DNA from: Exiguobacterium sp. s122
GTDB lineage: Bacteria; Bacillota; Bacilli; Exiguobacteriales; Exiguobacteriaceae
Length of the DNA stretch: 64,000 nt
Direction of reading: 5' to 3'
Assembly: GCF_018618475.1 (NCBI RefSeq)
Contig: NZ_JACSMD010000001.1
Span: 1,550,001 to 1,614,000, forward strand
Of this stretch, positions 52,417-58,113 are shown one piece after another. Under the pieces are notes generated by a model. The model was not told where the DNA came from. It did no database searches and saw nothing but the letters and a program-made list of their open reading frames with translations. How positions within the stretch are numbered: position 1 is the first letter of the stretch; the number at the start of each line of letters is the position of its first letter. Both the position numbers and the translations under genes were made by a program.

Positions 52417-53418
52417 TTAGGCGAGGTCATCGTTTGTCTGGTCTTTTTCCTCAAACACGTCACCGAATAGACCGAGGACGAACTGCTCTGGGTCAAACGG
52501 TTGCAAATCATCGATTTTCTCACCGAGACCGACGTATTTGACCGGGATATCGAGCTCGTTTCGAATCGCGAGCACGATGCCGCCTTTTGCCGTCCCGTCG
52601 AGTTTTGTCAGCACGATTCCGCTCACGTTCGTCGCCTCTTGGAACGATTTCGCTTGCATCATCGCATTTTGGCCCGTCGTCGCGTCAAGGGCGAGCAACA
52701 CTTCATGTGGACCGTTCGGTACTTCCCGTTCGATGACACGCTTCACTTTTTCAAGTTCTTTCATCAAGTTGACCTTGTTTTGAAGACGGCCGGCCGTGTC
52801 ACAGATGAGGACGTCGACGCCACGTGACTTCGCCGCTTGAACGGCATCAAATACGACCGCAGCCGGATCTGATCCTTCCGCTTGACGGATGACCGGCACC
52901 CCGGCGCGCTCGCCCCATACTTGGAGCTGATCGATGGCCCCGGCCCGGAACGTATCCCCTGCCGCGAGCATGACCGAGCGGCCTTCAGACTTCAATTGAT
53001 GGGCGAGTTTTCCGATTGTCGTCGTCTTGCCGACACCGTTCACTCCGACGAATAAGATGACCGTGAGCCCGTCCTGCATGTTGAGCTCACGTTCTGACTC
53101 ATCCTCTTGAAGACGCTTCGCGACGACCTCGACGAGCGCGTCGCGGACGGCGGCTGGATCTTTTAAGTTGCGGCGCCGTACTTCTTCTTTCAAGTCTTCG
53201 ACGAGATCCATCGTCGTCGTCACCCCGACGTCCGCTTGGATGAGCAAGTCTTCGAGTTCATCGAAGAAGTCCTCATCGACCTCGCGAAAACGATAGACGA
53301 GGTCGTTGACGGCACTTGCGAACCCGTCACGCGTCTTCGTCAACCCGTCTGTAAACTTTTGCGAAACCTCCTGGGTCGAGGTCGTCAATTTATCTTTTAG
53401 CTTCTTAAAAAAACTCAA
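52417..53418 (-). CDS. ftsY: Signal recognition particle receptor FtsY
   Basis: FtsY is the membrane-associated receptor for SRP. The 333-residue protein has no long acidic A domain, as usual in Bacillus. After the N domain it has G-V-N-G-V-G-K-T-T-T near residue 124, D-T-A-G-R near 207 and T-K-L-D-G-T-A-K-G-G near 271. The start is a TTG overlapping the smc stop (TTGA), with GGAGG 7 nt upstream inside smc, so translation is coupled to smc. Confidence 0.96.
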   Translation of the reverse strand: MSFFKKLKDKLTTSTQEVSQKFTDGLTKTRDGFASAVNDLVYRFREVDEDFFDELEDLLIQADVGVTTTMDLVEDLKEEVRRRNLKDPAAVRDALVEVVAKRLQEDESERELNMQDGLTVILFVGVNGVGKTTTIGKLAHQLKSEGRSVMLAAGDTFRAGAIDQLQVWGERAGVPVIRQAEGSDPAAVVFDAVQAAKSRGVDVLICDTAGRLQNKVNLMKELEKVKRVIEREVPNGPHEVLLALDATTGQNAMMQAKSFQEATNVSGIVLTKLDGTAKGGIVLAIRNELDIPVKYVGLGEKIDDLQPFDPEQFVLGLFGDVFEEKDQTNDDLA

Positions 53419-56400
53419 GTCAATTCCTCCATCTCTTGTTCTGTCTCGACGACGCGCTTCGCCTCGGCCAGTTCGACCGAGAGCACCTCGGAGACCCCGT
53501 TTTGTTGCATCGTCACGCCATAGAGCGTGTCGGCCGCCTCCATCGTCCCTTTACGGTGCGTGATGATGACGAATTGTGTATCGATCGAGAGCGTACGGAC
53601 GTATTCACCGAAGCGATGGACGTTCGCCTCGTCGAGTGCCGCCTCGACTTCGTCAAGGACACAAAACGGCACCGGTCGCGTCTTCAAGATGGCAAATAAC
53701 AACGCAATCGCAGTCAGCGCGCGTTCGCCGCCCGAGAGCAGGCTGAGCGTCTGCAATTTCTTGCCCGGCGGCTTGGCGACAATGTCGATCCCGGTATTGA
53801 GCAAGTCATGCGCATCGACTAATTTCAAGTCCGCTTCGCCACCCCCGAACAGTTCGATGAACGTCTGTTTGAAATGCGTGCGAACCGACGTATACGTCTC
53901 GCTGAAAAGTCGTGTCACTTCTTGGTCCATCTCCGAAATGATGGCGTAAAGGTCTTCTTTCGCACTGACGAGGTCGTCTCGCTGTTCCGACAAGAACGTG
54001 AAACGTTCATTGACAACTTCAAACTCTTCAATCGCATTGATATTGACCGGTCCAATCTCCTCAATTTGACGAACGAGCAGCTTGAATTCCTCTCGTGCCT
54101 CGTCGAGATCGATTTCAAGGGCCGGGAGGAGTTCGAAGACGAGTCCGCGTTCTTCGAGGGCATCGAGTTTCCACTGTCGTTTCAACTCGAGCTCGTGTCG
54201 TGTCGCCTCGATTTTCCGGACGTCACTCTCGGAGCGACGAAGTACTTCCGCTGCTTGCTGCTCACGTTGACGGAGAATCCGATGGGATTCTTCGAGTGCT
54301 TTAAGGGAAGCCGTCTCGTCCTCGATTTGACGTTTGAGCGCTTCCATCTCAACGCGCGCTGCCTCATGGGTGACCCGGAGTTCAGCAGACGAGACAATTT
54401 TTCCGGTCGCAAGACGTTCGAGTTCGGCCACGATTTGTCCGATTCGCTCGGTCAGTTTCATCCGCTCTTGCTCGAAACGTTCCACTTCCGCCTCGACCCG
54501 TTCAAATTCGAGTGCATGACGTTGCCGGTCGAGTTCAGATTGACGAAGCCGCTCCCGCAGTTCTCCCGTCGTCTCGACGCTCTTGGCTTGTTCGACTCGA
54601 AGCGCCTCGAGTTGTGTTCGAAGTGTCGCTTCTTTCGCCGACGTGGCCGTGATGTCTTCGGTCAGACGTGCGAGTTCTGACGTCGACGTGTCAATCGTCC
54701 GAGCGTATCGATTCATCTCATGGTCGAACAGTTCGAGTTGGGCTTTCGCGTCTTGACTGATGCGTTCGAGTTCACGATAAGCCGTCTCGCGTTCGCGAAG
54801 AGCGGCCTCTTGCTCACGCTTCTCTAACCGCAACGTGGCTAAGTCCACCTCGAGCCGTTTTATCTCGTCCGTATACTCCGTGACGCGCAATTGTTGCTCG
54901 TGGAGCATGGCTAGACCTTGTGTCAGCCCTTGCTTCAAGTCATCGAGCTCGCGTGACTGGGTGAACAACGCCACGCCTTGCTTCCGGCTACCGCCTGTCA
55001 TCGAACCGCCGACGTTGACGATGTCTCCGTCGAGGGTGACGATGCGGTAACGATAACCCGTCGCCTGGGCGATTCGGTTCGCCACTTCAAGCGTCTCCGC
55101 GACGACGACGGCGCCAAGGAGTGACCGCTTCAGTCGATCAAATTGATCGTCTGTCGTGACGAGGTCAGCGGCGACGCCGACGAACCCGTCCATCGATTCG
55201 AGCCGATGGACGACTTCACTCGGTACATACCGCTCTTTCACCGTCGTCATCGGGACGAATGTCGCCCGACCGGCGTTCGCCCGGCGTAACTTGTCAATCT
55301 CACGCCGACCGACCGCCTCGTCAGCGACGACGATATGTTGTTGCGTCTGTCCGAGCGCCGTCTCGATTGCTGCCTCGTAAGACGGGAGGACTTGAATCAA
55401 TTCAGCCACGGCACCGAGGACGCCCGGTCCACGGTCTTTCAACACAAATTTGACGGCATGGAAGTAGCCTTCATACGATTGTTTCATGCGCTCGAGCATA
55501 TCGATGCGGTCTTCGGTTTTTTGACGACGACGGTCGAGGTCGTGATACGACTGCTCGGCACGCGTCAATTTCTCACGCAATGTGCGCTCCTGAGACGTCA
55601 TCTCGTCTTCGCGTTCGAGCAATTGTTGCCATGCCGCTCGTCCTGCTTCAAGCCGCTTGCGCTCTGCCTCGAGCGCGGTCGCCTGCTCACTTCGAACGTC
55701 AAGTCGGTCTTTATTCTCACGCAACAGACGTTCGGTCGCTTCACGCGCTTGTTCGATATCCCGCTCCTCACGCTTTTGCTGATTCGTCAGAGTGGCCCGG
55801 GTCGTTGCAAGTTCGAACGCCTCACTTTGGAGTTGTTCAATCTCCGCTTCAAAGTCACGAGATGCCGCCACGAGCTTTTCGTCAAGCTCGGAACGTGACA
55901 CGTCGGCCGCCTCGAGCGTTGACCGTTTCGTCGCCATATCGGCTTGTGCGACCGAAAGACGTGCCTCGAGCTGATCGAGTTCGGTTGCCAACTCTTCACG
56001 TTGACGTTCGAGTCGTTCTTTCGTCTCGGCTCCATGCTCTTCACGTGCTTGTGCCAAGTTGATTTCTCCGACCAATCGCTCGAGTTCGGTCGCCTGTGAC
56101 CGCTCGGCTTGATGAGTCGATTCGAGCATATCCCGTTTATCCGCCAGCTTTACTTCGAGTTCGGCTCGTTCGGCTTGTAGCGCAACGAGCGATTCGTTCA
56201 GGCGTGTCGCTTCCTTCGTCGCCGCGTCAAGGTCTGTCTTGCACGTCGTTAACGTTTGAGCAAGTTCGGTAATTTCGGCTCCGAGGATGCCCGTCTCGAG
56301 TTCGTCGTGTCGCGCTTTCGCGACTTGATATTCCCGGGCGAGCGCCGCTTGCTCTCGGAGTGGCTCGACGCGATCGGCAAGCTCGTACAAAATGTCGTCG

Positions 56401-56972
56401 ACCCGAGACAAATTGAGTTCTGTATCTTGAAGCTTGCGCTCGGCTTGCTTCTTCCGTTGACGATATTTCAGTACCCCAGCCGCCTCTTCGATGACGGCAC
56501 GGCGATCTTCCGGCTTTCCAGAGATGACTTGCTCGACCCGGCCTTGGCCGATAATGGCGAACGCATCACGGGAAAGCCCTGTATCCATGAATAAATCGAG
56601 GACGTCTTTTAAACGACACGGCTTTTTATTCATGTAGTAATCGCTATCTCCGCTTCTTGATACGCGTCGCGTCACGCTCACTTCTTCATACGGAAGCCGC
56701 AGGTGGGCGTCCGAGTTATCAAGGATGAGCGTCACTTCAGCGACGTTCCGATGATTCTCTCCTTCACTACCGGCGAAGATGACATCTTCCATCTTCGCAC
56801 CACGCAACGATTTGGCAGACTGCTCCCCGAGCACCCAGCGTACCGCGTCCGATATGTTTGATTTCCCGCTCCCGTTCGGTCCAACGACCGCCGTGACGCC
56901 AGGACGGAAATCTAGTTCTATCCGCTTGGCAAATGATTTAAAGCCAGCGAGTTCGATTCGTTTTAAGTGCAT
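53415..56972 (-). CDS. smc: Chromosome condensation ATPase Smc
   Basis: Smc is the ring ATPase of the bacterial condensin and organises the chromosome with ScpA/B. The 1185-residue protein has Walker A G-P-N-G-S-G-K-S-N near residue 32, two long coiled coils around a hinge (about 510-640), the C-motif L-S-G-G-E-R near 1090 and Walker B F-C-V-L-D-E-V-E-A-A-L-D-E-A near 1115. I chose the ATG at 56972 (M-H-L-K-R-I-E-L). ATG 56981, three codons earlier, is also possible. It is transcribed from its own promoter because a plus-strand gene separates it from rnc. Confidence 0.96.
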   Translation of the reverse strand: MHLKRIELAGFKSFAKRIELDFRPGVTAVVGPNGSGKSNISDAVRWVLGEQSAKSLRGAKMEDVIFAGSEGENHRNVAEVTLILDNSDAHLRLPYEEVSVTRRVSRSGDSDYYMNKKPCRLKDVLDLFMDTGLSRDAFAIIGQGRVEQVISGKPEDRRAVIEEAAGVLKYRQRKKQAERKLQDTELNLSRVDDILYELADRVEPLREQAALAREYQVAKARHDELETGILGAEITELAQTLTTCKTDLDAATKEATRLNESLVALQAERAELEVKLADKRDMLESTHQAERSQATELERLVGEINLAQAREEHGAETKERLERQREELATELDQLEARLSVAQADMATKRSTLEAADVSRSELDEKLVAASRDFEAEIEQLQSEAFELATTRATLTNQQKREERDIEQAREATERLLRENKDRLDVRSEQATALEAERKRLEAGRAAWQQLLEREDEMTSQERTLREKLTRAEQSYHDLDRRRQKTEDRIDMLERMKQSYEGYFHAVKFVLKDRGPGVLGAVAELIQVLPSYEAAIETALGQTQQHIVVADEAVGRREIDKLRRANAGRATFVPMTTVKERYVPSEVVHRLESMDGFVGVAADLVTTDDQFDRLKRSLLGAVVVAETLEVANRIAQATGYRYRIVTLDGDIVNVGGSMTGGSRKQGVALFTQSRELDDLKQGLTQGLAMLHEQQLRVTEYTDEIKRLEVDLATLRLEKREQEAALRERETAYRELERISQDAKAQLELFDHEMNRYARTIDTSTSELARLTEDITATSAKEATLRTQLEALRVEQAKSVETTGELRERLRQSELDRQRHALEFERVEAEVERFEQERMKLTERIGQIVAELERLATGKIVSSAELRVTHEAARVEMEALKRQIEDETASLKALEESHRILRQREQQAAEVLRRSESDVRKIEATRHELELKRQWKLDALEERGLVFELLPALEIDLDEAREEFKLLVRQIEEIGPVNINAIEEFEVVNERFTFLSEQRDDLVSAKEDLYAIISEMDQEVTRLFSETYTSVRTHFKQTFIELFGGGEADLKLVDAHDLLNTGIDIVAKPPGKKLQTLSLLSGGERALTAIALLFAILKTRPVPFCVLDEVEAALDEANVHRFGEYVRTLSIDTQFVIITHRKGTMEAADTLYGVTMQQNGVSEVLSVELAEAKRVVETEQEMEELT

Positions 56973-57009
56973 CGTGACCATCCTATCCTCAGTAAGCATT
57001 CATTCGTTT

Positions 57010-57047
57010 ATTTTACCACAGTTGACGGTTCGTCAAAATGCTAGAAT
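57010..57047. promoter_or_regulatory. Back-to-back promoters for smc and the DUF1128 gene sharing one palindrome
   Basis: TTGACGGTTCGTCAA (57022-57036) supplies a TTGACG -35 on each strand. To the right, TG-C-TAGAAT (57039-57047) follows after a 14-nt spacer. To the left, on the minus strand, TG-G-TAAAAT (-10 at 57010-57015) follows after 15 nt. Both -10s are of the extended type, which would compensate for short spacing. The palindrome could also be an operator. Confidence 0.5.
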
Positions 57048-57087
57048 CATGCTATTCTTAAAAGAACTGTAGAAAGGGGTACGACAC

Positions 57088-57282
57088 ATGACGAACGAAC
57101 AAATGATCGAGGCGATTCTCGATAAAATGAACATCATCAACCGCGGCGCCATCAAAGCCGAAGAATATAATCGGGCCGACAGCTCGGCAGTGAAAGAGAT
57201 TTATGATTACGTGATGAACCGCTCATCGCTCTCCATCTCTGAAGTCGACGGCATCGTCGAGGAACTCGGACAATTGAATTAA
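57088..57282 (+). CDS. DUF1128 family small protein
   Basis: The 64-residue protein matches the DUF1128 family (B. subtilis YfkK type), with the pattern I-L-D-K-M-N-I-I-N-R-G-A-I-K-A-E-E-Y and the C-terminal I-V-E-E-L-G-Q-L. It is acidic, helical, without membrane helices or known function. The ribosome site AAAGGGG is 9 nt before the ATG. It is the only plus-strand gene in the window. It splits rnc from smc, which are adjacent in Bacillus, and converges on rnc across a bidirectional terminator. Confidence 0.9.
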   Translation: MTNEQMIEAILDKMNIINRGAIKAEEYNRADSSAVKEIYDYVMNRSSLSISEVDGIVEELGQLN

Positions 57283-57287
57283 AAAAA

Positions 57288-57305
57288 GTGAGCCGCGCGG
57301 CTCAC
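57288..57305. terminator. Bidirectional terminator between DUF1128 gene and rnc
   Basis: The palindrome GTGAGCCGC/GCGGCTCAC is flanked by seven A residues on the left and seven T residues on the right, so it can end transcription from both sides. Confidence 0.92.
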
Positions 57306-57310
57306 TTTTT

Positions 57311-58090
57311 TTATAGGTCGGCGTAGCGCCGGTTGAATTCGATTAACGCCTCTTTCGCGGCAATCTGTTCTGCTTCCTTCTTCGATCGACCGACCCCTTC
57401 TCCGACAATATCGTCAGACAAACGGGCGTGCGCGACGAACTCCCGGCTATGGGCCGGACCGCGTTCTTCGATGATCGTATACGAGACCGGACCGAGTCCT
57501 TCTCGCTGGACACTTTCTTGCAATTGACTCTTATAATCCGTCTGTTCTTCAAACACACCGGCCAAGACTTTCGGAAAAACCGCTTCGGCGAGGAACTGTT
57601 CGACTGGCTCAATTCCTTGGTCGAGATAGAGTGCGCCGATGTAAGACTCGAATACATCAGCGAGCAACGCCGGACGTTTGCGCCCGCCCGTCAACTCTTC
57701 TCCCTTCCCAAGCAAGATGAACTCAGAGAAAGCGTAAGCTTCGGCAAAGTTAACGAGCGAAGGCTCACACACGATGGCCGCACGTAACTTCGTTAATTCC
57801 CCCTCGGAGCGCTCCGGATACGTCTCATACAAAAATCGTGAAACGGTCAGTTCGAGGACTGCATCGCCTAAAAACTCCAATCGTTCATTGTCTTTCTTCA
57901 ATCCACGTTGTTCATTGACGTATGAAGAATGGGTGAACGCCTGCACCAAAAGCTCTTTATTCTCGAAATGGATCGAGAGCCGTCGCTCAAGCTTGTTGAA
58001 CTGCTCGAGGATCCGCGCCCGTTCGATTTCGTTTCGTCGGCGCCGCTGTGCCGACCCTTGACGGTCAAACCGTCGTTTGTCTTTTGTCAT
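57311..58090 (-). CDS. rnc: Ribonuclease III
   Basis: RNase III cuts double-stranded RNA in rRNA maturation and mRNA decay. The 259-residue protein has an extended basic N-terminus (about 30 residues), the catalytic signature [12 protein letters not shown] near residue 69, the second acidic helix [10 protein letters not shown] near 146 and a C-terminal double-stranded RNA-binding domain. The ATG at 58090 has GGAGGG upstream. It ends just before the bidirectional terminator, so it cannot read into smc as it does in Bacillus. Confidence 0.96.
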
Positions 58091-58113
58091 AGTTCCCTCC
58101 AAATAGAAGCATG

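Follow-up and report, generated by a model that had tools for sequence, protein, structure and literature searches.

Overlapping divergent promoters of the sigma-70/sigma-A type lie on opposite strands with their upstream halves overlapping, and polymerase exclusion is expected at such sites. The gap between smc and a DUF1128 gene in Exiguobacterium sp. s122 has the same layout with nothing fundamental different and, as predicted from its sequence, is an ordinary divergent sigma-A promoter pair of this known kind. Its particulars are that the two promoters overlap at their -35 hexamers and that each has an extended -10. The bidirectional promoters described by Warman, Grainger and colleagues use a common -10, and their starts are commonly 18, 10 or 23 bp apart according to the excerpted text (PMC12825309). 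As at those promoters, so far as the excerpts of PMC12825309 and PMC10268837 describe them, one DNA segment between smc and DUF1128 is expected to bind polymerase in either orientation, singly. Unlike those promoters, the smc and DUF1128 -10s are separate and the predicted starts are about 62 bp apart. A bidirectional promoter with a common -10, as these excerpts portray it, was rejected because the -10s at 57010-57015 and 57053-57058 do not overlap.

In the rncS-smc-ftsY region of B. subtilis, the major smc promoter has been mapped inside rncS (excerpt of PMC1188057). As there, Exiguobacterium smc would be transcribed from its own promoter, predicted to lie downstream of where rnc starts; the difference is that DUF1128, in inverted orientation, and a terminator stand between rnc and smc. 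A literature search under the name DUF1128 found no paper, and one under yfkK/UPF0435 returned a mention in a proteome table, in the part of the text retrieved. Papers on smc, rnc and ftsY together (at least three of four terms with Exiguobacterium) made no mention of Exiguobacterium, and the match for Exiguobacterium with transcription start site concerns a Bacillus phage. The search on overlapping -35 regions gave nothing usable, so the frequency of this configuration in print is not claimed.

The window (the whole 64,000-nucleotide stretch analysed) contains the features listed in Table 1. Pfam matches agree with the flanking genes given in an earlier note on this DNA, smc on the minus strand and DUF1128 on the plus strand, and the gap between them is 115 bp. 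The DUF1128 product clears the Pfam gathering score for its family (73 bits against a cut-off of 27, profile positions 10-69 of 71); in a comparison with solved structures its sole match was at chance level (E 0.099). The most likely start codon of smc is the ATG at 56972-56970, which gives a protein beginning MHLKRIEL and is supported by the presence of MHLKRIELAGFKSFAKRIEL in 19/19 genus members. The reading frame of a longer listed form starting at 56999 is interrupted by a stop in L012.

Table 1. Coordinates of genes and of observed or predicted sequence elements around the smc-DUF1128 gap (window numbering).
Feature	Sequence	Position	Strand	Remarks
smc gene		53415..56972	-	Pfam SMC_N and SMC_hinge
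smc extended -10	TGGTAAAAT	57010..57018	-	hexamer TAAAAT 57015-57010, preceded by TGG
smc -35	TTGACG	57036-57031	-	15-nt spacer to -10
Palindrome	TTGACGGTTCGTCAA	57022..57036		15 bp; 6+3+6 inverted repeat TTGACG-GTT-CGTCAA
Rightward -35 of the earlier note	TTGACG	57022-57027	+	14-nt spacer
Rightward extended -10 of the earlier note	TGCTAGAAT	57039..57047	+	TAGAAT 57042-57047, preceded by TGC
Probable (weak) DUF1128 -35	TCGTCA	57030..57035	+	overlaps smc -35 by 5 of 6 bp, 57031-57035
Probable DUF1128 extended -10	TGCTATTCT	57050..57058	+	TATTCT; 17-nt spacer
DUF1128 ribosome-binding site	AAAGGGG	57073..57079	+	read from the sequence
DUF1128 gene		57088..57282	+	64 aa; PF06569
Predicted hairpin terminator behind DUF1128		57280..57313		A-run and T-run; -20.5 kcal/mol, z -6.9
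rnc gene (RNase III)		57311..58102	-	PF14622/PF00636/PF00035; convergent with DUF1128

The locus was compared across 38 family genomes, 19 from the genus of the window and 19 from the sister genus. All carry DUF1128, smc and DUF1128 are divergent in every one (38/38), and rnc is next to DUF1128 in the same place in 37/38. The exception is L003, where a transposase-like frame of 342 codons (judged by eye) stands between DUF1128 and the expected rnc site and no rnc match was found in the 3.2-kb locus. Among class-level relatives smc was found in 23/24. At 20 of these 23 loci rnc is upstream of smc on the same strand, within 200 nt in 14 as measured between alignment ends; rnc is absent from the examined stretch in the other three, and no DUF1128 match was found at any of the 23. 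DUF1128 also matched in nine relatives from outside the family. Their loci (3 kb each) gave no smc or rnc match, and the L046 locus did not return even its DUF1128 match. At L038 DUF1128 is divergent to an apparent low-molecular-weight phosphatase gene (by eye). Because the rnc-smc order prevails in class relatives and DUF1128 is found elsewhere outside the family, DUF1128 was probably inserted between rnc and smc, in inverted orientation, in the family's ancestor; this direction of rearrangement is the one suggested by the distribution. The terminator behind DUF1128 has a hairpin with a T-run in 35/38 genomes by folding under looser criteria, with an A-run on the other side too in 30; a stricter search for perfect stems found a hairpin with a T-run in just 13/38. 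Its form is kept while its sequence differs between many of the species in a set of 16/38. The A-run opposite the T-run makes a two-way terminator possible; transcripts of rnc may then stop here as well, so that smc would have to rely on a promoter of its own. With DUF1128 and a terminator inverted between rnc and smc, smc would need its own promoter.

The 38 regions were compared without gaps using the anchor TTACCA[CT]AG followed by CAA 21 nt on, in the left half of the gap. The anchor contains part of the smc elements, including the CAA/TTG of the -35; exactly one match was found in each of the 38 loci and no row was dropped. The ungapped comparison was preferred because, to the right of the -35, a MAFFT alignment of 12/38 regions misplaced the sister genus. 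Promoters were scored with a hand-made sigma-A matrix.

The leftward smc promoter is well supported by this comparison. Its extended -10 and 15-nt spacing are present as the earlier note described, and the conservation it named as support is found for this -10: TGGTAAAAT occurs in 19/19 genus members, and the sister genus has TGGTAAACT in 18 and TGGTAAGAT in 1 of 19. The -35 is TTGACG in 19/19 genus members and TTGTAG (9), TTGCTA (8), TTGCTC (1) or TTGCAG (1) in the sister genus. The leftward pattern TTG-15 nt-TGGTAAnnT is therefore present in 38/38 with constant spacing, with the reservation that its TTG belongs to the anchor. By this hand-made matrix the smc -10 is the top leftward match in 38/38, and the promoter score has a p of about 0.001 against 1000 shuffles of the 108 intergenic bases. 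A simple promoter scan limited to 16-18 nt spacers gave no leftward site within the gap. The 15-nt spacer is short, which counts against the promoter pair as drawn. The smc leader (56973-57009) has 5/37 variable columns in the genus, a conservation that exceeds the needs of the ribosome-binding site alone.

On the right side, the earlier note had used the left arm of the palindrome as -35, with 14-nt spacing and an extended -10 at TGCTAGAAT, and these letters are present as described. The conservation named as support does not hold for this -10 as written: TAGAAT is found in 12/19 genus members and 0/19 of the sister genus, and a looser TAnnnT stands there in 30/38. The probable DUF1128 promoter is TCGTCA-17-TGCTATTCT, judged by its conservation. 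It occupies 57030-57058 and is invariant in 19/19 genus members, and its -10 sits 11 bp right of the earlier note's -10. In the sister genus a TAnnnT is found one base further on in 19/19 (the 1-nt shift being the analyst's choice); the two bases before it are TG in 10 genomes and AG in 9, and this position is the best rightward match in only 10/19, which counts against the TGCTATTCT reading. Conserved -10s are thus found on both strands, the leftward one in 38/38 and the rightward one weaker in the sister genus. The invariance of TCGTCA gives no independent evidence, since the same bases are needed by the smc -35. With the hand-made sigma-A matrix the TGCTATTCT promoter scored a p of only 0.125 against shuffles. 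The simple scan (16-18 nt spacers only) also proposed a rightward TTGACG-17-AATCAT, which was dropped for lack of conservation in its -35. At 57039-57058 ATGCTA occurs two times at a distance of 11 bp (ATGCTAGAATC ATGCTATTCT), and in the sister genus ATGGTA is often doubled at a distance of 12 bp. The repeated ATGCTA may represent two tandem extended -10 elements.

A rival reading is that TTGACG-14-TGCTAGAAT is the main DUF1128 promoter in the clade of the window, or a second one in tandem with TGCTATTCT. The sigma-A matrix speaks for it and against the TGCTATTCT reading: it outscores TGCTATTCT as best rightward promoter in 12/19 genus members (TGCTATTCT being best in 7), with a p of about 0.002 against 1000 shuffles in the window genome. 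TAGAAT and a TTG-starting hexamer at 57022 also co-occur in L001-L012 and are both lost in L013-L019, but this joint loss could be a single event on one branch; the TAnnnT kept in 30/38 points the same way as the co-occurrence. Its spacer, on the other hand, is only 14 nt, and TAGAAT is missing in 7/19 genus members and in all 19 of the sister genus, whose -35 position reads CCGAAA or GGAAAG. Its 15 positions vary more than the rest of the gap: 7/15 columns are variable in the genus versus 9/93 elsewhere (p 0.001), while the smc -10, the smc -35 and the rightward TGCTATTCT have 0/24 variable columns versus 16/84 in the rest (p 0.02), in tests that assume independent columns and genomes, an assumption that does not hold. 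With 7/15 variable, the elements of the earlier note sit where change is tolerated. We consider a main or tandem role for this promoter unlikely, though it deserves some weight; an extra or accessory promoter in the clade L001-L012 is possible, and TCGTCA-17-TGCTATTCT is retained as the probable DUF1128 promoter.

The feature that had drawn attention to the gap is the palindrome, with TTGACG on both strands in the letters and spacings given by the earlier note. That note made its conservation in relatives that keep the smc/DUF1128 arrangement a test of the idea. In the ungapped comparison the test fails: the palindrome is perfect in 1/38 family genomes, the window genome alone. The right arm CGTCAA is invariant in the 19 genomes of the genus. 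The left arm is variable at 4/6 positions in the same genomes, being TTGACG in 1, TTGACA in 3, TTGCCA in 7, TTGCTA in 1, TTACCA in 1 and TTAACA in 6; in the sister genus it is CCGAAA in 18 and GGAAAG in 1. Even L002, the nearest relative by smc and DUF1128 identity, has TTGACA. At most 4/6 arm pairs are kept in 15/19 genus members and 1-2/6 in 19/19 of the sister genus.

The number of such sites is also unremarkable. TTGACG occurs 81 times on the plus strand and 64 times on the minus strand of the window; from the product of these frequencies, scaled up from the window, 3.8 copies of TTGACGN3CGTCAA are expected in the 2.98-Mb genome, and 4 were observed, the smc-DUF1128 copy included. Perfect 6+3+6 inverted repeats of any sequence number 32 in the window. 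The exact 15-mer is found there as the smc-DUF1128 copy only, and at three or fewer mismatches it has 10 matches versus 4.1 expected from dinucleotide shuffles. Across the family 32/38 genomes have at least one TTGACGN3CGTCAA copy (71 in total) versus 4 copies of a reversed control pattern, which is built from rare hexamers (0.2 expected in the window genome). Eighteen of the other 70 copies were inspected, and 14 of them sit within stop-to-stop frames of more than 200 codons. The form TTGACGN3CGTCAA appears to be largely a by-product of composition. It was concluded that the smc-DUF1128 palindrome is very probably accidental, being perfect in 1/38, matched by the expected genome count and variable in its left arm.

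The earlier note had offered an operator as an equal alternative, and this falls together with the conservation of the palindrome. A dimeric regulator controlling both smc and DUF1128 from this site would suit the placement of a perfect dyad between both -10s. At least one intergenic copy of the same form also lies 31 bp upstream of an apparent MerR-type regulator gene (type judged by eye). No dyad kept among the relatives was found at smc, however, and neither the count of 4 versus 3.8 nor the location of most inspected copies inside long frames fits an operator. It was ruled out on conservation and genome-wide number, and we regard it as highly improbable. An operator of the MerR type is a dyad within an overlong spacer of 19-20 nt; at smc the -35s fall inside the dyad and the spacers measure 14 and 15 nt, which does not match that type. 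The copy upstream of the MerR-type-looking gene, TTGACGTCGCGTCAA at L092:1004-1018 (C1:195703 in the window genome), is, unlike the palindrome at smc, probably a true operator. Sixteen of the 19 genus genomes carry TTGACGTCGCGTCAA (12) or TTGACGTCACGTCAA (4), counted by sequence match.

Taken together, the gap would hold two ordinary divergent sigma-A extended -10 promoters with overlapping upstream halves. The smc promoter would be TTGACG-15-TGGTAAAAT with a start near 57003, and the DUF1128 promoter is most likely TCGTCA-17-TGCTATTCT with a start near 57065. The perfect palindrome would be a by-product, its right arm constrained as the smc -35 and its left arm symmetric by chance in this genome alone. 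We think it fairly likely that this overlapping pair with a by-product palindrome explains the smc-DUF1128 gap. From the earlier proposal of divergent promoters sharing one -35, the overlap of the -35 regions survives; the sharing through a palindrome does not, and the rightward promoter is moved 11 bp to the right. A quite improbable alternative is that the conserved block mainly serves an unknown regulator, or another sigma factor, as its binding site, in place of two sigma-A promoters. The invariance of 57028-57040 in the genus would suit it, as would the conservation of the gap (56973-57080), where 16/108 columns are variable in the genus versus 87/99 fourfold sites in DUF1128 and the first 200 smc codons. 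The conserved letters nevertheless fit extended -10 promoters at good distances to both ribosome-binding sites, of which the DUF1128 one has no variable columns in the genus (57071-57079). With the whole gap so strongly conserved, invariance of any single element is weak evidence.

If the two sigma-A promoters are as drawn, the two -35 hexamers all but coincide (57030-57036), with five of six bases common to both. Two polymerases would be unable to engage these base pairs through sigma region 4 together, and we infer that they would be excluded from holding the gap simultaneously. Warman and colleagues report that none of the five promoters they tested had enough basal activity for competition (PMC12825309), which cautions against equating overlap with linkage. 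That the supply of SMC is tied to a small uncharacterised protein by the common -35, and that the arrangement, having arisen when DUF1128 landed inverted between rnc and smc, was kept in both genera because the coupling is useful, seems a long shot at present.

The main outcome is that a false lead is removed: the striking palindrome is very probably a coincidence, aided by a very common hexamer. What stands in its place is a housekeeping gene for condensin, separated from rnc, its usual neighbour, with a predicted promoter overlapping that of an uncharacterised gene. The locus offers a small testable case for asking if two genes with no apparent relation can have their expression coupled by overlapping promoters.
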